Shown in pieces: positions 1,397 to 16,459 of a stretch of DNA of 64,000 nt (positions are counted from its first letter, which is position 1; each line of letters opens with the position of its first letter). Source of the stretch: Effrenium voratum (lineage: Eukaryota > Sar > Dinophyceae > Suessiales > Symbiodiniaceae); NCBI GenBank assembly GCA_963377175.1, contig CAUJNA010002713.1:62001-126000 (forward strand), read 5' to 3'. Both the position numbers and the translations under genes were made by a program. Under the pieces are notes generated by a model. It worked only from the letters and a program-made list of their open reading frames with translations. It did not search any database and had not been told where the DNA came from.

Positions 1397-4300
1397 TTAA
1401 GGATGTCGGCCATGTTTCGAGTACAAACATCTATTGGGCTGGGCTCTAGCAGGTCTTCGAGCAAGGATAGGAAAACAAGGTTGATGCAAGAAGGATTGCA
1501 TCCAGAACCAGCACCATATCGTTTGAGCAGGCTGAGATGCGGGCAAGGCGCGGCAGTCCTCCAATTCCGGCGAAGTCAGCAGCATGTTCTTGACCTGCGC
1601 ATTGCAGTGCGATAGTCGAAGAACAAGCGCCTGACCACCATGTGGTGTGGACTTCATCGCCCGTTCCGCGTCAGAGGACTTGGGATGCTCAGGGGTGCTC
1701 TCGCTTGATGAATGCTCTGCTTCCGAGTCTGAGGGATCAATATCAATCGTGGATTCCACGCCGGACTCCTGGTGCTGGTCAGAGTCGGCCAACATCACCT
1801 CTTCCACTGTCTGCATACCTAGCTCCTTCAGCTGCAGCAAATGCAAATTGTGCATCATACCAGCCCCTGGACGTCGCTGGGGCTTGACAATCTGCAGGAA
1901 CATGTTTGGGCGGCCCTCAACCAACATGACTCCAATCACTACCAGTTCCATGCTGCCAAATTTCAGCCTCTGTCCATGCTTGAATCCGCCCACCTGGCCA
2001 TGGTCAAAATGAATTGATGAAACAACCACGACCATCCTAAGACTCAAATGTCTTCAACATCCTTCACAAAACCATCAAAACCAAATTTCAGAGCGTTGCA
2101 CACCTGGAGGCAAACTTCGTCACGCACATCGAAGAGTGCAGGACGCTGACGGCCAAGACCGACTGGGTAATGAAAGGTGCATTGTAAGCTGGTGATGAAC
2201 TCGTGGCTGAAGCTCTGCTCTGCATCTTGGGATAGCTCTGGTACCTCTTTCCTGCACTTCACGGACGAGGTCATGCGGACGAAGTCTTGGTCTTCAAATA
2301 TTCCCGCACCAAGCGAGCCATCAACATGCATCCACAGTTTTGGGACTCCTTCGTTGTCTGGCCTGACTCCGATCACAAGGGAGGTTGTCTTCTGTCCCAA
2401 AAGTCCGTGACAAACGACATCACCGTGGCGAAAGCCCCCGACTGCCAAGCAAACGTCATCGCGGATGTCAAAAAGTGCTGGCTCTCCATTTTTCCGCAGG
2501 TACCGGAAGGTGAAGTCGAAGGCAAAGTCGGGATCCAGCTGCTCACGCTCCTGAGATCCTGATCTGGCTTTCCGCAAGCCACGCTCCAGCAACTCCAACA
2601 TACTTTTCAACGTCGCCTTGCCGTCGTTGTTTTTGTACATGGCATCTGAAGCGGGCACTTCCTGCAGTCTGCGCTTGCCAGCCACCTTGAAGTCCTGTCG
2701 GCACAGGTGGTACCTTCCATAAAGCCCTGCTCCTTGTCCTTTTTCAAATTTGAACCACAACTTTGGCACACCATCGTCCATCTTCACACCCACCACCACT
2801 GCTTCGTCCCCATCATGGTCTGTCAGCACCTGACCGTGGGTGAACCCACCAACAGCCCTGCACACGTTTTCTCGGATGTCAAACTTTGCAGGATTCGGAT
2901 CGTGCAAACCTGCAGGGAAATTGAAAGTGCACTGAAGGCGGCCTGCAAGCTCTTGAACCTCAGGCGATGGAGGAGGTTCTTCGAGAAAGTCGTCCGGTGA
3001 TTCTTGTACCTGACGGTGGCCGACCTCAGTCACATGTGGTGACGCCACTCCGCTACACTGTTGCCCGTGCATGCTGGACAGCTGCCAAGCACTGGTCACA
3101 CAAGCGCAACGCTGCTACAATGGTCGAATGATTCAGAACACTAAGCGCTGGGCGACCTGGAAGATTTGCAGATCGAACTCTTTGAAGGTGCCAGCACCCG
3201 GCGATCCATCCACATGGAAAAACAGCTTGGGAATCTGTCGGTTTGCACGCACTCCAATCACAACTGCCATCTTGTTGCGGCCAACCTTCACCACCTGTCC
3301 GTGCTTCAAGCCCCTGCCCACTTTCGTGCATATCTCATCCCGGATGTCAAAGTGCTCCAGGCTTATAGACATGTAGGAGTTCGGCCCGTCTATGTACTGA
3401 AATGTGGGCGCCAAATCCTTGCTGAGCTCAAGCAGCTCCCGGTTGTCCAAACCAGAAGGGGGCAGTGCGGCTTCTCGGACCACTCGCCGGCCATTGGCCA
3501 TAAGCCTCTGCCCATCTTCGAAGATGCCTGCCCCTTCGCTGCAGTCAACATGGAAAAACATGCGCGGCTGTCCTTCATCAGAGTGCACCCCAATGGCAAC
3601 AGCGTAGAGCCCGCTTTTCACGCGAACTTGCTGCCCATGAGCGAAACCGCCGAAGGCCTTGCATACTTCATCCCGGACATCGAAGAAGCCAACATGGGGT
3701 GTCTCAACTCCACAGGGATAGGCAAAGGTGCAGTGCAAGTGCTCTGTGCGGATGCCAGACTTCCCTTGCTGCACGGCCTTCAAGCAGGCAACCTCGTGCT
3801 TGAATGCATCCACGTATCGCAGGTCGTGTCGGCCAACTGCCCCGATGATGCGGTAGACATTCTTCCGGCCGCAGCGCCAAAGGACTGTAGCCCAGCCAGA
3901 GTCGCAGGACTCGAGGCGTCCGACGCATCCATCGCCACCATCCTGATCCTCCCAAATCCAGCCCGCGCCTCGTTCCACCAGCGCGCCCTCCACGACGTTG
4001 CTGGCGGTGACCTGTTCGCCGCCTGCGGGCAGCACCCGGAGGTTCTCGACTTTGACCAACTTTACACTGCCGTCCGGCACCTGCACCATGTAGCGCCCCT
4101 CCTTGGCTGACTTCACCTTGCACGCTTGGCCATTGAGCTGGGTGGCCCCTGATAGGCCCACGATAAGCGCAGTGGAACCTGCGCAGGATATGGGGGCTGT
4201 CAACAACCATCAACATGGCGGATGTATAAGCAAGTTTCTTGAACTTTCAGGGCAGGATCACATTGGAATCAGAATCTTGCGCCTGCACTCCCCAATTCAA

Positions 4301-5013: not shown

Positions 5014-5471
5014 CTCGACCCATGTGATTGGTGGCGGCTCAGAAACCACTGATTGGAGGGTTCTTAGCAGCCAGCCGTGCCTTCTTTCTTGCTCTTGCAG
5101 GCAGGGGATGAAAAAATCAAAAGCGGCACAAACGCTTTTTTCTTGAAGCCCTTTCTGTGTTATCAAGCCTAGGCCACCTAAGGGAATACCTAGGCAAGCA
5201 GCAAAGCGTTGACTACCTTTTCACACTGCTGCCAGTGATCTTGAAGTCTGTAGCGGCGGAGCATGTACAAGTACACTCATGCACAGGGTTGGAACCTGAA
5301 TCCACACCCCCCTCATTTGAGATTGAGCAACAACGAAAATGTCGGCAGGTTTTGCAACCCGCTTTGATTCCATACGCACATCCATTGCACGTTGAAAATG
5401 GACATTACACATCCGTCGTGCATGCAAATTGCTACTCTCTCAGAAGGGCTCCGTTGTGATGACGATTGCGT
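5014..5471. other. Flank between GTPase exon and retroelement
   Basis: No coding frame is convincing. This is where the 3' LTR or untranslated end of the minus-strand Copia-like element should lie. I could not find a matching copy on the other side of the element (the sequence just past 16232, which runs into the scaffold gap), so no LTR is called. Confidence 0.4.
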
Positions 5472-6030
5472 TCACCACCTTCCGCTAGTAGACCAGCCGC
5501 GCGAACTCCAGGTCGACCACTGCCAACTGCTCCAGTCCTGACTGCTCCAGTCCTGACTGCCCCAATCTCTCCAGCTTCGGCTTCTGGCAGCGGAGCTGGA
5601 GGCGGGCTGAGCAGGTTGCACAGGTCCGCGGGCGCGGTCCTCGGCGCTTTGCCTCTGGCTGCGCCGTGCGAGCTTCTTCGCGTCGTCCTCCGCCCAGCAG
5701 CAAATCTCCTTGACTTCAGCTTCGAGGTCCTCGGCTCCGGTTGCCCGGAGCGTAGGGAACTTTCCGCCAAAGGTGACAAGGTTGCGCATCCCCGGGAGGA
5801 TGTTGACCTGGGCGACGAATTGATGAAGGCTCAGCATTTTCCCGTTATACGAGAATAGCCATGGAAACGTATGCAGGCTGGCGTCATAGTCCCCGACCTG
5901 GCCGCCGGTGATGTAGACAGTCCTCACGTAATGGAGACCTCGTTTTCCATAGCCTGGCCCAACCCCGAGAAGTCGCTGATCGTAACTCCGTGGAAAATTC
6001 GGGGAGGACACAAAACCTATAGATATCCAC
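5472..6030 (-). pseudogene. C-terminal tail of the Copia-like polyprotein
   Basis: The segment continues the polyprotein with VSSPNFPRSYDQRLLGVG, then GLHYVRTVYITGGQVGD and a helical stretch. It ends in a low-complexity tail of Trp, Ser and Arg/Gln (DWGSQDWSSQDWSSWQWS) with the stop at 5472. The function of the tail is unknown. Its position directly after the zinc-ribbon part, in the correct orientation, identifies it as the end of the same polyprotein. Confidence 0.65.
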
Positions 6031-6840
6031 CATGCGAAGGGCAAAGGTCGCGTCTTTGTCAAACCGATCCACCACATTGTCATATCCAAGCTTGCGGGCC
6101 CTGCTATCATAGTTCTTCGAAGCCTCAATCTGCTTGGCTTCAAAGGATGTTGCTCCTCTCTTCGCAACATCAGCATAGCCCTTGAAATCGTTGATGAGGA
6201 GCTGATCAACCGTCTTGCCAACGCGGTGACTCACCTCCTCAAGCATTTGCGTTCTCCGCTTTGCGGCTCTGAAGAGTTGAACGTCATTGCCCTCCTTGGT
6301 GCTCCGTCCGCAACGCTGGCACTTGAGCTGCCCCTGCATCATGTCCTCGCCGCAGAGGCTGCAGTCCGTGTAATGGACGGGCATGGCGAAGGTCTTGAAC
6401 CTGACGACTGAGGTGTCGGCCGCGGGTTGCCCCGGGCGAGAGGCGGCCGTGTCCTCATTCGTCTGCTCTTCTTCAGGATTTGTGGCCCTGTTTCCCTCCG
6501 CATCGGTCTGAAAGGCCTCGTCTGCAGTCACAGTGACGGCTCGCCTTGCGGCGAGCGTGTCGACAGTCGTTTGGTTCTCCAATGCCTCAAGACGAAGGGC
6601 GTTTCTCCAAAGCACTTCACCTGTCTTCGCATCTGTGTAGTACAGAATGGAGTCATTGGGAACGATGTCGGCGGTCAGCATGACGTCAGACTCCGAAAGG
6701 AAAAACACCACTCCGAGCTCGATCGCATACTTGAAGTCGATGACAAGCTCAATGGGCATTGTTGCTCGAACTCCAGCATTATACGATGAGCTCTCTACCG
6801 GGTGGATGGAGAAGTGGCTCTGCGAGCGGCCACTCTCCGT
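6020..6840 (-). pseudogene. KptA/Tpt1-like domain C-terminal part and zinc ribbon
   Basis: In a shifted frame the domain continues with SGRSQSHFSIHPVESSS, where the family has its V-H-L-S block, then MPIELVIDFKYAIELGVVFF and SESDVMLTADIVPNDSILYY, which match the Tpt1/KptA C-terminus (helix, then 'Gi.F..S.N.V.l' strands). After an acidic linker a four-Cys zinc ribbon appears (CSLCGED...CQRCGR), then a long charged helix (MLEEVSHRVGKTVDQLLIND). The frame shifts near 6020-6030; DIYRF connects to VSSPNFPRSYDQ in the next segment. Confidence 0.7.
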
Positions 6841-7697
6841 GCCCCAACACCACCCGGGATCAAACCTGTCCTGACGATGTTCTCGGCTGCGTTCTTGCTC
6901 GTGCGATGGTATAGTTTGCCAGGGCCATCCTCGATCAGCGAAAGCTGCAGTCCGACCTTGCGAGCGTCCTCCGGGAGAAACTTCCCGTAGATGGCCTTCG
7001 CAAGTGCGTACTGGTTTCGGCTGATGTCGCCATCAGCATCAACGCTGCTGGCGTGTCCCTGACTGGCACGAACCTTGATGACAACCCACTCCTGGTTGTT
7101 TTCGGCAGCCGAAGGATGCTTGATCGCAAGAACAGTGAATCTGCATTTCGGATCGAGTGCAAAAATCTTCAACAGCGTCTTGTACCCGATATTGCTGCGG
7201 GTCTTTCTGTTGAATTTGTCACATAGCTGGTGGACGTCGACAAAATAGTTCTCATCGAAGTCGAGTGGCCTCTGTTCTTGAAACCTGCCACGTAGCATTC
7301 CAGTTATGGTTGTACATCGATCAGTCGAGGACGGCTCTCCCTTCAGGAAGGTGGGCACTTTCAGGATCGTGCCCGGGAGAATCCTCGCCTCGTACTGCTG
7401 GCCGCGGAAGATGACGGTTCCGCCGGGCTTGCCTGGCAATGCGCTTCCGGCAGGGGTTGCCCCCCGCACATCCGATGCCACCGCAGCGGTCGATGCTTTC
7501 GCCTGTGCCTTTGGCGATGCTTTCGCGGTGAACTTGGGTGTAGCCGGAGCGGCCTTGACGCCAAGCGCAGCCTCAGCGGCACTCCCTTGCGGGAGTGCAT
7601 CATCGTCATCATAGTCGATCTCCTCCTTGATTTCGACTTCCTCGATCTTTTCGAGGATGCGGCCCTTCGCGAGCTTGATAGGACGTTGAAGGCTTTC
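6825..7697 (-). pseudogene. KptA/Tpt1-like RNA 2'-phosphotransferase domain, N-terminal part
   Basis: It continues in frame from the TGA at 7698-7700 through an acidic and Ala/Lys-rich linker (EIDYDDDDALPQG, then KASPKAQAKASTAA). It then matches the Tpt1/KptA layout: LRGRF where the family has Leu-Arg-His; the winged-helix-like FVDVHQLCDKFNR...GYKTLLKIFALDPKCRFTVL; VRASQGHAS, the family's R-x-x-Q-G-H signature; and LYHRTSKNAAENIVRTGLIPGG for the ADP-ribosyl-transferase-like L-Y-H-G-T block. KptA/Tpt1 enzymes remove an internal RNA 2'-phosphate using NAD+. The family's first catalytic His is not seen. The frame breaks near 6825-6840. Confidence 0.75.
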
Positions 7698-10103
7698 TCA
7701 TGACTCAAGCGTGAGCTTCCTGTTCGCCTCATACTCAGCCAAAGTGTACGGATTGAGTCCAGCTTCGGCGTCATGGGAATATTCAAGGTGCAACCTCACG
7801 TTGTTGAAATCTTCTTTGTGGGACTCAACGACAGCGACACCCTTCATGACGTTGAAAAGCGACCACAACCGCTCCACCGTCGTCTTCCGGTTCTCGATGG
7901 AGTCCATCATGTGGGAGTTGTCAAGCCTGTCCTGTCGAGACACCAAGAACGTCGACTCCTTCTTGCGAAGGAGCTTGTGCTTGCTGAGCGACTCATCCAA
8001 CAACTTTTCCATGAACTGGTTGTAGATGGGCGGGAGCATATAGCACGAACCCTCGGTGTTGGCCAAGATCGTGATGTTCGCAATGCCCCACCAACTCCTG
8101 CACTCCTCAAGCACATCGATCGCCTTGGCGCGCTTGTTGAACAGCTCGGGCCAGTGACCGTCTCCGCATCGGTATGGCCATTCGGGCTCATCGCAGATCC
8201 CACCGCTGCCAACGAGCTCGTTCCCGGACCAGTACACCGTCACGAAGAAGTCATGGTCCTTAAACTCAGGACGTTTCTTGAGGTCCTTCAGGGCGCTCTT
8301 CACTGTCCACGTGAGAAATGTGAGGTCCTTTCCCCAACACATTCTCACCTCACAGTGGCTACAACTTGTGCTGCGGTTGTAGTTCATGTCCTGCGCGAGG
8401 TCCGCCCTCTTGCGGTTCTTCTTGCCACCGCTGATGAGGGCGAGGCTGGAGTCGCTCACGACGAGGTGCACGCTATTCCGGCCACAGGTTGCCCCGGGCG
8501 TGATGCGGCCAAGGCCTTTGTCATTGACAGCGCAAAGCGTGTCCATGAGTTCCGGCGCGTAGTCAGCCGCCCACATAGCGCATGAGCTTTGGAGAGTGGC
8601 TTGTGCTCCGAGGATCTGCTCCATTGTCTTGCGGTCCTCGGGCCTCGTCTCCTGGAACAGAGTGTTCGATGTAAAGCTCGTCATCACTCCTCGCCAGTAC
8701 TCCAAGTTGCCCTCCGAATACTCCCCGAGGTTGTAAGCAGCCATTGCGGCTACCGGTGAGGGAAGCTTAAGAGCAACAAGTGCACGTTTTGTGGGTCTCT
8801 GAGCCGAGCTATCGGTGACAACCTGTTTCATGCTGTCAGCAAACTCAGAAAAACATTCATGGATCAGGTCAGTCATTTCATACGTGTAAGATTCAGCACG
8901 TTTGAGGGCCGCCCCCCTGGACTGTCCATGCTGATGATCCTTTGTGCACTTATACTGTTGCAGTTTGGCCAACGATTGACAGGAAGAAGCAATAGTCCAT
9001 GACTTTTGCAACAAATTTCCATCCTTGTCCAGGACACCAAACATGCAACCATCGCAATTGTACTTGACCATCTCATATTTCATGAGGAAATCATGCACGA
9101 AATAGTTCTTCCAATAACTGCAAAGCTTAGGAAGTTCCATGTTGATCACAAGCACAATGTCAAGCTGTCGAAGCATAGTGATAAGTTTGTCCAAACGCTT
9201 CAGCAGTTTGCGAAACAACGCCTTGTGCTCCTGGATCTTGGCTTGACCTTCTTGAGTCTGACCATTGATATTGTTCCAGGGGCACCCACCCGTACACGGA
9301 AGTGAAGCATGAAGCATCACGCAGGGCGGTGTTTTGGACTTGACACTCTTCCTGACAAGTTGCACCTCGCCAAATACCCATTGCAACGTATCAGCAACCA
9401 ACGCATTCTGACGCTCAGTTACTCTAAGCACCTTGCAACCAAATGCTGGTAATCTTGATTTGTCGCCGAGCTTGGAATCATCAGAACAGCAAAATTCGCA
9501 CAAGAACCGATCATAGGTTTCATGCGTGGAAACGGCGGAAGCTTGCGCCTCGCTAGTGGGGGCTGGATTGATTGTAATGTTTCCATCCAACTGCACCCAC
9601 CGTACTCCAATAAGATTGCAAGCATGATCCCATTTTGCTTTGCTCGTAAACGGCTTGATCAAGATGTCCGCAACCTGATACACAGTGTTGACGTTGACGA
9701 GATTGAAGAAACCTTTCGTGAATTGTTCTCGAAGCCACGCCAAAGAAGTTCTTTGAGTTCTGTCAGCATGACGAAGCTGTGCGGAATTTCCAGTCTGAAT
9801 GATGTGAATTGTTGCTTGGTTGTCTTCACAAAATGCAACTTTAAACTTCTCATTCAAATGAACATTCAATCCGCGAAGAGGTGCTATCGTTCTTTCATGC
9901 TGCTCAAAACCACCGTACCGAATCTCGTCCAACTCGGGGTCGACATAAACCAACACGGGATTGCCCCCCTGACCGGAGTTGTCCCGGCCTGGAAACGGAA
10001 TCGGCTTGGCGTTGCCACCAGCTGGCTGCTTTTCCTTGGGTGCATCAAGCAATTCCCAGAGCACACTCATGAGTGAAAGCGTTGGTAAACCTTGCGCTCG
10101 CAC
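7698..10103 (-). pseudogene. RNase H C-terminal part, PCTGG methyltransferase-like domain and SGNH-like domain
   Basis: 801 codons, ending at a TGA (7698-7700). Residues 88-165 are the end of Copia RNase H (CEDNQATIHI, HADRTQRTSLAWLREQF, VADILIKPF). Residues 262-335 carry HASLPCTGGCPWNNIN and MELPKLCSYWK. In spacing these recall motif IV (Pro-Cys) and motif VI (Glu-Asn-Val region) of cytosine-C5 methyltransferases, but neither is canonical, so this is inference. A Cys/His-containing part follows (CDGCMFGV, KCTKDHQHG). Residues 545-735 show SDSSL (S552), YWSGNELVG (G627-N628) and DNSH (D728, H731), the order of SGNH-hydrolase blocks I, III and V. The frame after the TGA is unchanged and leads into the KptA domain, so the stop looks like a point mutation. 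Confidence 0.7.
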
Positions 10104-10550
10104 AGAGTGATTACAGCAACAACTTCGGCTTCAGTAGATGACATAGCAGTACTTGTCTGCTTCTTCGAAAACGCATTGATGGGGTACTACGTGTTGGGAC
10201 CGACGATGACCGCCACACAGCCAGTAGTTGACCTCGAGTCGAACTCACCTGCATAGTCGGCATCTCCGAAAACCCATAGTCGGCAATCCAGCAAACTGTC
10301 CCCATTAAAACATGACATCCTGTGATTGAGGGTCGAACTGATATAAGCAACCAAACGATGCAATCCCTCATCACAGTCTTTGGACCATTTTGTAACGCGC
10401 GAAGCAAGTGACTGAGTTGCTCGAAGAAGATCATATCTTGCCATTCTTGCAGCAAAAAGAATCTTCATCAAAACCCGGCTTGCTATGGGTTGCAACTTAC
10501 CAGTTGGTTCTTTCTCGCTCTCACGCGGAAGTGCTGTCCTCATTTCATGA
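10104..10550 (-). pseudogene. RT connection and N-terminal half of RNase H
   Basis: Copia-type connection (LASRVTKWSKDCDEGLHRLVAYI) leads into the RNase H start (VFGDADYAGEFDSRSTTGC). An in-frame TAG at 10187-10189 interrupts the domain. The same frame then continues through AFSKKQTSTAMSSTEAE, the usual second RNase H motif with its catalytic Glu. The frame shifts again near 10100-10110, after which RAQGLPTLSLMSVL continues in the frame of the next segment. Confidence 0.8.
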
Positions 10551-12745
10551 AACGGGTCGAAACATTCTTGAGGGTAGCACGAGAAGTCTTCACAAGCTCA
10601 CAATAAGACTCAACGCACGAATCCAAGAAATCGGCCATGTCGTAATGGACGATGTTGACGGGTTTCTTCACGCAACCGTCTTTTGGGTGATCCATGTCAA
10701 TGAGCTCCTTGAACTTGGATCTCTTTGACTGTTTCTTCGCAGCAGTTTTGTTTCTCATTGCTGCCGCGGCTGCGTGTCCTCCCGCCTGGTCGGCATAGCT
10801 GAAAACTGTGCAGCCGGTCCACCAATTCTTCTCCTTGACATCGGCTTGTGCTTTCCACGAGTCCTCGAGATACTCATATGTGTTGCCCTTTGCGACACAG
10901 GTCACGCGGAGATCCAGCAGTCCCTCAAAGTTCTCGGGGGCATACCTCTTCCTTCTGGGATAAAGATGGTGTCGAACCCAAATCTTTTCCTCGGGGAAAT
11001 GCTCCCAATAATCTTCCGTTCTGTGAGGGACGGCAGGACTTGCGCTCTGCTTTTCGAACACATGAGCCAATGGGTGATGTTCTTTCGCCAATGTCACCTG
11101 ATTCTGCTCCACATGTTCGCAGCCAAAATACCTTCCGAGCGACTCCGGCGTGTCGATCTCGATTGCAGACTCGATGTTCTTCCACCCTTTTGCCAAATTA
11201 GCAGTTGGGCCAGCCAGTTTGAGGTCATCAACATAAACAACCAACAAAAGCTTGAGCTCATCATGGAAGCATACGCTTTGCCAAATGCCTTTCAACAATG
11301 GCCTCCACTTGTTCTTTCGAAGACCAGTTTCGAAATGGTTCTCCCACAAGCCACCGCTGTCAATGTGACCATACAATGCCAAAATCAAAGGTGACAGTGG
11401 ATCAGTGTACTTGCCAATCCATTCTTTGGGCCAACGGTCTCGTGGAAGTCTCACCCATGTAGTGATGCCTTCGAACAACGCCTGCGTGTATGCCTGCTTC
11501 GCATCCCCCTGCTGCTTACCAAATCCAGGCTGAGAACCGTACAGGTCGACAATCTTGCCTGCTTCCATGCTCGCAGGGGAAGAACCAAGTTCGGCAAACA
11601 TCGCTTGCTCGTAGTTCTCATCAACAACACGGTTTCCTTCGAAAACAGTTCTGCCTTTATACTTTCGGCTGGGGTCGCCCACAGCAAGCTCGCTTCCCTT
11701 GAGGTAACACGCCTCAAAGATACGGGCTATGTGGGCCTTTTCCCCCTTTGCCTTTGCTTCGGCAATGACTGTCTTGCACTCTTTTACCCGCGACTCGTCC
11801 CAGGTACCTTTGCTTCTGAGCTTCTCCCATTCGACATCCAAAGCCTTCTTCGCCTCAGGAGTGTTTGCGACTTCCGAGCGCGGAATAAGCCTTGCAACTG
11901 CTGCAGTCATCAACAAAGCATTGACCAAACCTTCACGGTTGTCTTTGATATGCTCTTCAATAACTGCAGTGACACACGCTCGATGCTCATGAACAGTCTT
12001 CCCTTTTTCGTTGACTGTGACAGGCGTCGCAGGGGCAAGCACTTCGGGAATAGCTGATGCAACGGCTGCCGGCGACGGGAGCTTTGTGACTGTGCCCCCC
12101 TGACCATGAACAGCGTGATTGGGCTGAACACAGACGGCCGTGGCAGCTACGTCTGCAGCAGCTGGCTTTGCCTCCTTCTTCATCGCGAGCTCTTTGCGAT
12201 ACTCCTCAGCAACACGAGCGCGTTCTTTGGGAGAGGCAAGTTTCCACATATCTGGTGGAATACCCGGTGGACGACTTGACTTTCGGGCTCTCACCAAACG
12301 AAAACCATCCCATTGAAACCCAGCCGGCATGTGATCAGGATCATGATCAGCAAGTCCCTCGGCAGGTGCAGGAGGATCTTCCATCAAAACCTCCTCCGGC
12401 ACAGCTGCTTCGCCAGGCTGCAAATGTGACTCCGGCTCATATTCCAATTCGTCCGGAGAACACGGTTTGTCGTCGGCAATAGCTTGCTTTGCGGGAAAAA
12501 CAAACGTCTCATCAAGCAGACTGAACTCATACTGCTTGACTCGGAGGGGATTAATGTCACCCGTCCGCAACTTGTCCGGCAAATTCTTGAGCGGCAATAC
12601 CAAAATTTCATGCGTGTAGGTAAAGCCAGGTTGCACATGATAGCCAACAAAAATGCCGACATCCGAAGTTGGCAGAAACTTGGACTGCTTCGAATCGACG
12701 CGCTGACGATTGATCCAGTACAACAATTTTGCACCGAATGGATCT
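10540..12745 (-). pseudogene. Integrase C-terminal part and reverse transcriptase
   Basis: The segment begins with the integrase C-terminal region (IFVGYHVQPG), then an Ala/Pro-rich linker, then a Copia-type RT. Visible RT landmarks are VFEGNRVVDENYEQAMFAEL and the catalytic VVYVDDLKLAG (YVDD box). The C-terminal part includes FGCEHVEQNQVTLAKEHH. The frame closes at 10540, while the RT/RNase H connection continues in the frame that opens at about 10550 (VLMKILFAARMARYDLLRATQ). A one-base indel near 10545-10555 is inferred. Confidence 0.85.
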
Positions 12746-13883
12746 TCGTGTCAGGAAACTCATCACCAAAACGCAAAGCCCACGGCGACTTGTCCTTGTC
12801 ATCTGGAATTGTAACATTGAGAGCAAATGCATGATGTTGAGCTGTCAAAGGCCAAAGCTCAACCGGCAAACCGCTTTGAAACAAATTTGCCCTTGCTCCC
12901 TCCAGAATTGTACGGATCTCGCGCTCGATCACCCCGGAAGATTGACTGACAGATGGCTGGCTCAGCACGTGTCTCCAACCCAGACTCTTTACTGCAGCTG
13001 CGATTTCGCCAGAATTGTCAGAATAGAAAATTCCAACATGATCATCTGGCTGCGTGAAATGTTGAAATGCACGAACACAACTGTCAGCATCTTGCCTTGC
13101 TGAAGGGTAAAGATACCGGAACTGCGTGAACACATCTTTCACAACCAAAGCATTCCACTCGCCCTTGAACCCGTACGTCTCATCATTTGAAATGACGTGG
13201 TCAGCAGTCACATGATCTCCAAATGCATTTGCATCCACTGAAGAAGACCCATGTCTGCGACGAGCTTGAGGTGCTTGCATCTTGGATCGCACACATGTTT
13301 CGCAAAAGGGGTTCTTGGGCCTGTGAGTGAAAAGATGCTCTTCACTTTTGGCCTCACGCATCACCATTTCTTTTGAACGCTTTGACATCGGTTTTGGAGC
13401 TTCCGCAACCTCAGAATTGTCCTCCAATTCCGGATCAAACTCCGGTTCCGGCGGTTCAGCTTCATCATGGCGCAATGGAAACGATGCGGCATCCGGCGGA
13501 GGTCGCCCCCCGCTTGAAGATGAAGGCACTTCAACGCCCCCGATCTTCTGATCGGATGCAGCAAGCGCAACAGGCATAGCGGATTCAGAAGCTATGACCT
13601 CGCACTGATCGTCAACATACGGAACTCGCCCATCGAGCTTCAATATTACCGCTTTGCCATCAGGTCGCACAAAGTACGGAGCACTGTTCTTTCTCCATAC
13701 GAAGTCGTACCCCTTTTCCAAACATCTTTGACCAACAGAAAGAACAGCTGGCGTGCTCGGCAAAACATACGGAGTGACGACCTCGTTCAACTGATCAATG
13801 GAGAAGTCCGCACTCTTGTCTGCACAAATTGATCCATTTGCTGTTGAAAGATTGATTAGAATCAATGCAAAATTTATCCTCTT
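12735..13883 (-). pseudogene. Protease C-terminal part and Copia-type integrase
   Basis: The segment is in the same frame as the preceding gag-protease part. It starts with the rest of the protease (LSTANG..., VLPSTPAVLSVG). After an acidic Pro/Ser linker comes the integrase: a zinc-binding HHCC motif (H177, H181, C188, C191 counted from 13865) and the catalytic triad D222 (ADHV), D283 (YSDNSGE) and E314 (SSGVIERE). The frame is lost near 12735-12745 just before PFGAKLLYW, which continues in another frame. All catalytic residues are still present. Confidence 0.85.
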
Positions 13884-15095
13884 TTAAAATATAACTGCAC
13901 GCTCAGCGTCAACCAGATCTTGTTCACTACCTGTGTCGACAATCCACTGACGAAGCCCTGCTGGTGCTGGCGTAGCAGTATACTCCGGCACATCGTCAAG
14001 GTTCGTTTCATCATCATCAATCCAACAGCCAGGACAATACACACCGCAATAAATTGGGTCATTGTCATCATAGTATTCGCAATAGAACCCACAAGGCGCG
14101 TTGTAGTTTGCATGCATCAACTCAACAACCCCCTCCACCCTCAGACACACAGCGGCTGAGGACTCGCCCTTTTTGCTCTGGGATCGCTTTCTCCCTTTTC
14201 CCTTTGGGGTGGGAGACCTACCTCTGCTGGCTCCTTTCTTTGGGCTCGGCTTATCTGTTGCTTGTGCAGCAGACCGAGTCTCATGCGAAAACGCACAGTT
14301 GTCTCCACGAGTGCATTTCCCCTGACCGCCTTTGAAAAACCTGCACGGGATCTTTTTCAGCTCCGCTCTCTTTCTCGATGCCGACCGATCCCTGTCTCTC
14401 CCCTTGCTGTCAGAGCGCCCCCGACCTTTTCCTTTTAAATTTTGGCTCGGGGGTCTTGGGTCTTTCTCATGCTTGTAAATGCAATTATCCCGAGTGCACT
14501 TGCCTTTCTGAAAATCATAGCAATACTTGACCGCTGAAGGATCTCTTGCACGCCCAGGATTTGCATTGGGAGCTGGAGCACCGACCTTCTGATTGTGAGC
14601 TCGAGCAACACGATCACGATTTGATTGCAATCGCTCCCGAGTCAAAACATCACGAACGGCTTGAACAAGAAACTCGTAGCTCTTGTTATACGACCCATCT
14701 TTTGCACGCTCGTATGTATCGAGGTCATACTTGATCTTGTGACATCCACGAATCTGTCGCAAGAAGATGTCCTTCAAGACGTGCTGCTCCGGAACGATCT
14801 TCATGCCAGCAATGACGGAATCCCAATTCTGAATAAAGGTCATCAAATCATTGCCATGAAGTACCACCTTCAACAAATCTTCAGTGGAATACAACGCTCC
14901 GGCCTCCTCATTCGTTCTGAAATACTGCTCAAACATGAGAAGAACTTGACGTCCACGGACAACTTTGTCCAAAGCGGCTTGTTGCTCCTTGTACGTAAGG
15001 ATCTGCCGACTAAGGTCGCCCCTAGCAATCCGCGACAAGGCTGCAAGAAGCTTTGTATCCAACGTTTCAAACTGCTCTGGATCTGCCAAGCTCAT
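13884..15095 (-). pseudogene. Gag C-terminal part: capsid-like region, two CCCH zinc fingers, start of protease
   Basis: The segment has 403 codons. Residues 1-160 are an alpha-helical gag region. A C-x7-C-x4-C-x3-H finger lies at about 192-209 and a C-x9-C-x5-C-x3-H finger at about 251-271, separated by Arg/Lys/Ser-rich basic sequence likely to bind RNA. A Cys-rich acidic patch follows (about 335-357). At 384-390 is WIVDTGS, the active-site motif of a retroviral-type aspartic protease. The TAA stop at 13884-13886 lies inside the protease. The downstream frame is the same and continues the protease, so this is a nonsense change or a readthrough stop, not a frameshift. Confidence 0.8.
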
Positions 15096-15830
15096 GTTAC
15101 TAACATGAGATTCTTCTTGTCCTCCCGGTTGACGTACACCTTGTTAACCCAGGTGAATGCAGCATCGGGCCGATCTGAAGCAGCCCGAATTTCTTCGCGA
15201 GTAGCTGTTTTCCAGGCTCTGTAGGTCTCAGGAGTTGGAAACTCACTCAGCCTCAACGAATCAGCTTCCTTTGCTTTTGGCCGATCATGCTGATTCCGGA
15301 CAAAGCCGAGGAGGGCCGCACGGAACTCCGCCTCGGTGGTCTCGGGACCAGTCAACCGATCAATGTTCGGCTGACTTGTCGGCTGATTTTGCTGACTTCG
15401 GCTGTTTTCTTGCTCCGAAGACCGTCTCGCATGATCTTTGATATCAAACTGCATTGCACCAGAAATAGGATCAGTCCAACTCTGCTGTGAAATAATCTGA
15501 GGCATAGGTCCAGAAGTTTGTGCATTCTGCGTTGGAAAAAGACGCGGATCATCAAAGGTACTGCCCCTCTTATCCAAAAACGACTCCGAACTGATGTTCT
15601 GAAAACTTGACGCAGGCTGAGGATCTCCGCGCACCATTTCACGCTGCGCCTTTTCGAGATCGTTCCTCAGACGCTCAACGGTGTCGTTCAGCCCGTTGAT
15701 CGTGTCCTGCATGGCGTGGTTCTCCGCCAAAATACTGTCTCTCTGCTCACCGACCGCCTTTTCCGAGTTCTCCATCACAACAGTCTCAGCATGTAAGCTT
15801 TGTGCGAAAGCGCTATACTGCCGTTCTTTG
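15092..15830 (-). pseudogene. Gag middle segment (coiled coil plus capsid-like start)
   Basis: This frame continues the coiled coil (ENHAMQDTINGLNDTVERL), passes through a Gln/Ser-rich linker and enters the conserved gag region (LSEFPTPETYRAWKTATR, then FTWVNKVYV). It ends at a TGA that overlaps the next ATG as ATGA at 15092-15095. The capsid-like region continues in the other frame (LADPEQFETLDTKLLAALSR), which suggests a single-base lesion or, less likely, a deliberate frameshift or restart site. Confidence 0.65.
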
Positions 15831-16232
15831 CGACACAGCTTCGTTCACTTCGGCAGAAATTGCTCCCCGCATCTGGCTAACCTGGGCGCTGAAGAAAGCG
15901 CGGGACTCTGCGAACTGCTCGTGCAGCTCAAGGGTCCGGCGGTTGTTCTCCTCGTCCAGGCGATGCACAGTTTCCGCCAAATGAGCGCTATATTCCGCCC
16001 TTGTAGCATCCATAGCAACGCGATGTAACGTGTTGGCCTCTTCCCTAACAGCGTCACCCGTGTCGTTATGCACATGCATGATGTTCTGGGTGGCTTGGTA
16101 GTTTGTCGCGAACCCGAATACGTTTCGAGGATCGCGAGGGTCAACAGGACCTGTAGGTGCAACTGCACCATCACCACCGTCACCAACTTCTCCAGATATA
16201 TTGTATATAATGGGCAAATCTCCGGATGCCAT
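15813..16232 (-). pseudogene. Gag N-terminal segment of the Copia-like element
   Basis: The best start is the ATG at 16232-16230 (MASGDLPIIYNISGEV). About 140 residues follow: a Gly/Pro-rich start, then a charged helical region rich in Glu, Arg and Ala (HRLDEENNRRTLELHEQF) likely to form a coiled coil. The frame stops at 15813. The neighbouring frame picks up the same helical character immediately (RKERQYSAFAQSLHAETV), so a one-base indel near 15815-15835 has split the ORF. Upstream sequence is lost in the scaffold gap. Confidence 0.65.
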
Positions 16233-16267
16233 GGCGATCTTTGTACAAGCCTTTACGGCTGATAACC

Positions 16268-16367
16268 NNNNNNNNNNNNNNNNNNNNNNNNNNNNNNNNN
16301 NNNNNNNNNNNNNNNNNNNNNNNNNNNNNNNNNNNNNNNNNNNNNNNNNNNNNNNNNNNNNNNNNNN
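16268..16367. other. Scaffold gap of 100 N
   Basis: Exactly 100 undetermined bases. The round number points to a placeholder, so the true distance is unknown. The gap sits just upstream of the retroelement start and beside a GC-rich tetranucleotide repeat that probably stopped assembly. Order and spacing of the GTPase exons across it depend on scaffolding. Confidence 0.95.
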
Positions 16368-16397
16368 CCCGCCCGCCCGCCCGCCCGCCCGCCCGCC

Positions 16398-16457
<60 letters not shown>

Positions 16458-16459
16458 CT
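16368..16459. repeat. CCCG/CACG tetranucleotide repeat
   Basis: About 32 bp of CCCG units pass directly into about 60 bp of CACG units. The 'protein' repeats it spells (ACVR and similar, on both strands) are artefacts of the 4-bp period. Confidence 0.95.

Follow-up and report, generated by a model that had tools for sequence, protein, structure and literature searches.

A Ty1/copia-type retrotransposon family of Effrenium voratum with a Tpt1-like C-terminal module and a putative half-tRNA primer

The window analysed here, a stretch of 64,000 nucleotides of the dinoflagellate Effrenium voratum (contig CAUJNA010002713.1, positions 62,001 to 126,000), contains one damaged long terminal repeat (LTR) retrotransposon, which occupies 16267 to 5156 of the minus strand and is a broken member of a Ty1/copia-type family. 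The family is recently mobile, and its relatives share a C-terminal module in which RNase H is followed by about 1,400 amino acids (aa) of added domains: a C5-methyltransferase (MT) fold, an SGNH hydrolase, a Tpt1/KptA-like domain, a zinc ribbon and a Trp/Ser tail. Purifying selection acts on the three enzyme-like domains, and the primer-binding site (PBS) of the family points to priming by half a tRNA. That the overall anatomy is as described here is virtually certain.

The module behind RNase H

The open reading frame (ORF) 10130-7698 (810 aa) encodes in a single frame the end of RNase H, with its last residues ADILIKPF (9648-9671), followed by the MT-fold domain (8811-9521), with the motifs SLPCTGGCPW (9276-9305) and NMELP (9129-9143), and the SGNH domain (7851-8498), with the blocks VSDSSLAL (DS block, 8436-8459), WGK (8322-8336), YWSGNEL (GN block, 8214-8234) and DNSH (DxxH block, 7911-7922); all coordinates are those of the window and all features of the element lie on its minus strand. 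The continuation of the RNase H frame into a PCTGG/ELP domain and SGNH-like blocks, pointed out in an earlier note made from the sequence alone, is thus borne out; the residue numbers of that note equal ours minus 9, consistent with a start at 10103. Behind RNase H the frame of the window copy is interrupted by TGA 7700-7698, TAG 6797-6795, a frame change and other lesions, so that the Tpt1/KptA-like RNA 2'-phosphotransferase domain (6607-7322), split by this TAG and the frame change, is divided between two ORFs. The zinc ribbon CSLC...CQRC (6307-6363) and the Trp/Ser-rich C-terminal tail (5475-5570) lie further downstream in the element, and both are also found in a second family of the same genome, family B, described below.

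The Tpt1/KptA-like domain is recognized by sequence profile. In the window copy PF01885 scores 29.8 and 17.6 bits in the two ORFs (cut-off 26), while in two unbroken copies it scores 47.2 bits (E ~3.5e-12) over profile positions 10-176/177, covering both lobes, and the R-x-x-Q-G-H motif given in the note is kept. For the 810-aa ORF, on the other hand, neither a PDB sequence match (E <= 5) nor a Pfam match (E <= 1) was obtained. Thus, of the profile matches that the note had proposed to look for, Tpt1 was found, a methylase was not, and the SGNH assignment, likewise unmatched, rests on fold and conserved blocks.

The PCTGG/ELP domain is nameable by its modelled fold as C5-cytosine-methyltransferase-like. 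The Pro-Cys of motif IV (S-L-P-C) and the Glu of motif VI (E-L) are invariant in eight aligned proteins and follow the strands of the model in the expected order, the residues not being superposed. C5-methyltransferases also carry a motif I (FxGxG) and a motif VIII (QxRxR), and both are absent from the domain when the sequences are read by eye. With these two motifs absent and no Pfam or PDB profile match, identity with a canonical DNA methyltransferase (DNMT) was rejected. Relatives of the domain were also sought in viral contigs and GTDB genomes, where 42 and 38 pattern matches, respectively, were obtained and tblastn confirmed none. The SGNH domain of the unbroken copies has no Pfam match at E <= 10; its predicted identity as an SGNH hydrolase is supported by fold comparison and by conserved blocks, blocks I-III being present in 13 of 16 rows and block V in 12 of 16, a count to be read in the light of the models of P0006, P0011, P0014 and P0015 ending earlier and of a block-V match in P0011 that was not counted. 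The claim of a Copia-like element with three extra enzyme-like domains is accordingly upheld, with the PCTGG/ELP domain now named by fold.

Sister copies, relatives and selection

When the 810-aa ORF was used as a query, at least 61 matches, mostly 91-98% identical, were obtained in the same genome, a lower bound because 56 of 4,759 candidates were scored. Among the matches listed, at least 16 places have open frames of more than 3,000 aa, some of them lengthened by N or by flanking sequence (in one, L008, the 3' stretch is N). Two sister copies are read as a single frame from gag through to the Trp/Ser tail. Copy C3101 (11,816 bp, frame of 3,771 aa) has LTRs of 152 bp that are 99.3% identical and begin and end TG...CA, with the target site duplication (TSD) CAATC, and copy C78 (11,775 bp, frame of 3,769 aa) has LTRs of 151 bp that are 100% identical, again TG...CA, with the TSD TTTCC; a third sister copy examined is without its 5' part. 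In ten further copies, both LTRs are readable in eight (two ends are N), being identical at 150 of 151 positions in five and at 151 of 151 in three; the 5-bp TSDs match in all eight, the polypurine tract (PPT) is present in 9/9 readable 3' ends, and the PBS in 9/9 readable 5' ends, eight of them exact over 14 nt and one with a single change. The sister copies thus carry the two TG..CA LTRs, 5-bp TSD, PBS and PPT of Ty1/copia elements, and the window copy lacks the 5' LTR. Their number, together with the relatives that carry the domains, led us to reject the possibility that the module is peculiar to the window copy.

At 52% identity in Pol, a query with protein P0015 identified family B at 26 scored places of the same genome (26 of 7,526 candidates scored), 16 of which lie in frames of exactly 2,591 aa. 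In the family B copy that was read, gag-pol-MT ends in a TGA overlapping the ATG of a second ORF, which encodes the SGNH and Tpt1 domains, the zinc ribbon and a Trp-rich tail; the ATGA overlap (L073, 869-872) suggests, as sequence, termination-reinitiation. Family B is 36% identical to P0001 in the MT fold, 23% in SGNH and 34% in Tpt1, and database proteins with the same domain order are 28-33% identical to P0001. The domain order, whose constancy the note had wished to see tested, is therefore constant across divergent families, including family B with its two ORFs. For P0003 the best match in the same genome is 34% identical (28 of 12,287 candidates scored); its own family was not found there, so that P0003 probably comes from another species.

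The ratio of nonsynonymous to synonymous differences per site (pN/pS) was computed over 351 pairs from 27 of 30 loci, the window copy and two loci that differed in length having been set aside. It came to 0.061 (RNase H), 0.087 (MT fold) and 0.090 (SGNH); for Tpt1, taken from those 21 of the 27 loci whose downstream frame is open for at least 380 aa, it was 0.096. These values cover RNase H and the three enzyme-like domains, all three of which are under purifying selection. Pairwise distances in the MT fold and in SGNH correlate closely (r 0.958, reached in 0/5,000 shuffles, 11 rows), as do those in RNase H and SGNH (r 0.946, 5/5,000 shuffles, 6 rows).

A search with the reverse transcriptase (RT)-RNase H piece gave 167 matches (120 of the 167 listed), with relatives named as Symbiodinium natans and S. 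pilosum. A tree was drawn for 31 proteins in which the end of RNase H is recognizable and preceded by 380 aa or more, and one branch with 100/100 support holds 23 rows. The module motifs were found in 16 of these, and the other seven, read by eye, show either an MT-fold start (P0019, P0041 and P0058) or a dioxygenase-like start (P0023, P0026, P0035 and P0049). Outside the branch none of the eight rows carries the module: six stop 18-66 aa past RNase H, and P0069 and P0071 have behind it an unrelated tail of 271-273 aa with a precomputed PF00658 label. The earlier note would have been contradicted by relatives that stop at RNase H with the downstream domains confined to this element; such relatives do exist, but outside the module branch, and the domains are present in many families. 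We infer that the module was acquired once. The raw labels, with the seven rows counted as module-free, speak against a single acquisition, since they need five changes, at least three by starred branches, and under them a single change is seen in no bootstrap tree. The tree has a midpoint root and some long outside branches, and contig ends may have truncated some gene models.

The module is itself variable. P0007, P0011, P0015, P0029 and P0096 have an extra H-x-D...H...R domain ahead of the MT fold, behind RNase H in those that include it, and P0030 and P0084 have this domain and SGNH without the MT motif. Its motif looks like that of Fe(II)/2-oxoglutarate dioxygenases, which it may resemble; no PDB match was obtained at E <= 10 and the single Pfam match was at chance level. 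Dinoflagellate DNA is known for 5-hydroxymethyluracil (see the title of PMC11071213), which makes such a domain of interest. UniRef gives the name Fe2OG dioxygenase to P0105, one of the RT relatives.

Behind the PBS of the window element lie Gag with CCCH zinc fingers and a protease (DTGS, by eye) at 13884-16240, a putative integrase region at 12384-13883 (H/C motif by eye, no Pfam match), RT with the start of RNase H at 10540-12750, and RNase H at 9648-10597; the ORF order is consistent with integrase ahead of RT-RNase H. The RT scores 17.5 bits with RVT_2, under the cut-off of 31.6, and the relatives scanned are likewise below it; many RT relatives bear a precomputed PF07727 label, with P0061 described in UniRef as Ty1/copia-type. 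The PPT ATGAGGGGGG (5307-5316) and a 3' LTR (5156-5306, TG...CA, 96.7% identical to the LTR of C3101) complete the element. Compared with C3101, the window copy is short of about 470 nt in gag, at 14136/14137, and of another 36 nt near 6025. A 100-N run (16268-16367) either hides the 5' LTR or has taken its place, and where that LTR is expected, 16268-16458, exactly 100 N adjoin a CGCA/CGCC repeat, a possible assembly join. Elsewhere in the window, ORFs at 2044-4209 (minus strand) include a Mib_herc2 match (43.8 bits, within 3133-4209) and carry repeated FD-x-RDE-x-C...GGF-x-HG-like units.

The primer-binding site and the altered Tpt1-like site

The PBS GGTTATCAGCCGTAAAGG (16250-16267) stands immediately after the LTR, in the window copy adjoining the N gap, and its complement ends TACGGCTGATAACC. 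Two host tRNA-Ile(AAT) genes (L037 and L038) read TACGGCTAATAACC at nt 27-40, giving agreement at 13 of 14 nt, which none of 20,000 tRNA shuffles reached; the chance of such a match over 46 tRNAs is ~4e-4 by formula, the gene search pattern having been taken from the PBS itself, so that the two genes were looked for and not drawn blind. The sole mismatch is at wobble position 34, A in the gene and C in the PBS, and complementarity ends in the anticodon stem. Position 34 of tRNA-Ile(AAU) is normally inosine, which pairs with C; a tRNA gene with G34 could be an alternative partner of the C-bearing site. Family B shares GGTTATCAGCCGTA at its PBS and then diverges, so that conservation stops where complementarity stops, and the same half-tRNA site is thus present in two families whose module domains share 23-36% identity.

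By its sequence the PBS is complementary to an internal tRNA segment and not to the 3' CCA end, the use of a short tRNA segment being the feature by which ICTV sets Hemivirus apart (PMC8515867). Canonical 3'-CCA priming was rejected, the PBS lacking the initial TGG and matching the anticodon arm, though host tRNA 3' ends were not all compared. Priming from the anticodon loop is described for copia, Ty5 and fungal Copia elements, including a fungal Copia with a tRNA-Ile primer (PMC10886601). Reverse transcription of the family is thus very probably primed by the 5' half of tRNA-Ile(AAU), in the manner of Drosophila copia and yeast Ty5. These elements are alike in Copia-type Pol, LTRs, 5-bp TSD and anticodon-arm PBS, whereas copia and Ty5 use tRNA-iMet and the PBS of the window family matches tRNA-Ile, in an element of 11.8 kb with the module behind RNase H. 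The likeness to Hemivirus is one of priming site, the RT tree having no reference Hemivirus.

In Tpt1 numbering, R18, H19, R68 and R121 hold the junction phosphates and H101 and T103 hold NAD+ (PMC6333775). In the element domain R18 is kept, while H19, which holds the junction 3'-phosphate, aligns with Gly in four aligned proteins, in one comparison facing the LLRH of a Tpt1 of solved structure, and R-G is read at this position in the remaining compared proteins and in family B. R68 (RxxQGH) and R121 (S-G-R; Lys in P0007) are kept, as are the H and T of the NAD+ site (HxT; P0002 has YHCT in place of YHRT). Fungal, bacterial and viral Tpt1/KptA share the two-lobe domain, the three tetrad arginines and HxT (PMC6333775; PMC9503650), and the element domain differs in being retroelement-borne and in the Gly at the tetrad His. 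As the Arg-His-Arg-Arg tetrad is incomplete, we call the domain a Tpt1-like homologue and do not claim canonical activity. From the alignment, we read the loss of His as a probable change of substrate, with loss of activity as the alternative.

Possible roles of the module

To prime, a tRNA half needs a 3'-OH end. Metal-independent RNA cleavage yields 2',3'-cyclic and then 2' phosphates (PMC9503650), and some Tpt1 enzymes act on 3'-phosphorylated RNA (PMC9458441, citing Munir 2019). In the model that we tentatively favour, at somewhat below even confidence for the whole, the 5' half of host tRNA-Ile(AAU) would prime reverse transcription of a module-bearing Copia element; tRNA cleavage would leave a 2',3'-cyclic, 2' or 3' phosphate on the half, and the Tpt1-like domain, made in the same polyprotein as RT, would strip the terminal 2' or 3' phosphate using NAD+, leaving the 3'-OH that RT requires. 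A Tpt1-like domain beside RT, an apparently re-tooled junction residue and the chemistry of cleavage make a primer-healing enzyme plausible, and phosphate removal by this domain is possible, if rather uncertain. A weaker part of the model is that the MT-fold and SGNH domains may bind or modify tRNA, cDNA or particle. The fullest version is more doubtful: the module would be a self-encoded primer workshop, selecting the tRNA-Ile half and making its own 3'-OH with a re-tooled Tpt1 that lost its internal-junction residue, with selection perhaps by the MT-fold domain, itself similar to enzymes that work on flipped pyrimidines, and with the C of the PBS as the trace of a copied inosine.

Several points weigh against phosphate removal. 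We know of no Tpt1 in other half-tRNA elements (copia, Ty5, fungal Copia), so that Tpt1 is not generally required for such priming, and our PBS data cover two module-bearing families, with no module-free Copia among them. Cleavage of tRNA-Ile at nt 40 in this host is an assumption of the model, which does not explain what the MT-fold and SGNH domains do. Alignment is the basis for assigning Gly to the His position; R-G-H is found in P0010, P0012 and P0086, and P0007 carries R-H about 15 residues upstream. The tetrad, His included, is called essential in other Tpt1s (PMC6333775), so that the domain may be impaired in the elements, and human TRPT1 is described as without 3'-phosphate activity (PMC9458441).

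The retained arginines and HxT would also suit a rather unlikely alternative, in which the Tpt1-like domain would transfer ADP-ribose to the 5'-phosphates of element RNA, of the tRNA half or of cDNA and so shield them from nucleases or host sensing. Tpt1 orthologues are described as modifying 5'-P RNA in this way, and a test of RNA capped with ADP-ribose against XRN1 is presented under a heading by which degradation is prevented by the cap (PMC9458441); among the fold matches obtained with P0010 are KptA-DNA and 5'-p-ADPR-DNA complexes. Such capping leaves the conservation of the half-tRNA site unexplained. The best viral fold matches of P0010, which are Tpt1 proteins from Hyperionvirus and Sylvanvirus together with a nidovirus polyprotein, recall counter-defence. 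In this unlikely reading the module would repair or mask the effects of host attack, with Tpt1 cleaning RNA damaged by host ribonucleases and the MT-fold domain marking cDNA as host-like. KptA is described as RNA repair in viruses and is listed for phages, for sawfly baculoviruses, for one giant virus and for a small number of RNA-virus polyproteins (PMC9503650), and the MT fold of the PCTGG/ELP domain recalls the DNMTs of Symbiodinium LINE and DIRS elements, for which host-like marking was proposed (PMC5890265). The missing FxGxG and QxRxR, however, make methylation uncertain, and no RNA ligase was noticed in the element, no search having been aimed at one.

It is quite improbable that the domains are catalytically dead and merely bind RNA, membranes or particles, with SGNH used as in ZfL2-1 ORF1p. 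The lost Tpt1 histidine, the zinc ribbon and the low-complexity tail would fit, and the ZfL2-1 esterase binds phospholipids, though it is also active (PMC3905857); against this, the SGNH blocks and Tpt1 arginines persist at 23-36% inter-family identity, beyond the needs of binding alone. Retrotransposons do capture genes, but that host genes were swept into one lineage without function is hardly credible given pN/pS of 0.09-0.10 for three domains, a domain order constant across divergent families and a module start in 23/23 branch rows (seven by eye). Among the roles that the earlier note had suggested for captured enzymes, RNA end repair is favoured by the half-tRNA primer site and the altered Tpt1 site, nothing bearing on splicing emerged from the element analyses, and escape from host marking through the MT-fold domain is hypothetical.

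Parts of the module have parallels. SymbioLINE-Dnmt and SymbioDIRS-Dnmt3 are dinoflagellate retrotransposons whose C5-methyltransferase fold is under purifying selection, as here; they are LINE and DIRS elements with recognizable DNMTs, whereas the present fold is Copia-borne and missed by sequence profiles, and the same source ranks Copia first in abundance among the retrotransposon classes of Symbiodinium and states that it is without any DNMT domain (PMC5890265). Bdelloid Vesta LTR elements also have an SGNH/GDSL hydrolase behind Pol, but as a separate ORF3, and the accessible part of their description mentions no Tpt1 or MT fold (PMC5408684). Among the papers listed from the open-access literature, none reports Tpt1/KptA in a retrotransposon or an element of the present kind, as judged by titles and abstract openings.

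One branch of Copia is thus shown to carry, under selection, a Tpt1-like enzyme together with an SGNH hydrolase and a C5-methyltransferase fold that had been hidden. The tie between an NAD+-dependent RNA-end enzyme and a half-tRNA primer site makes the origin of half-tRNA primer ends directly testable and, if it is true, a self-encoded primer workshop would answer how half-tRNA primers gain a usable end.

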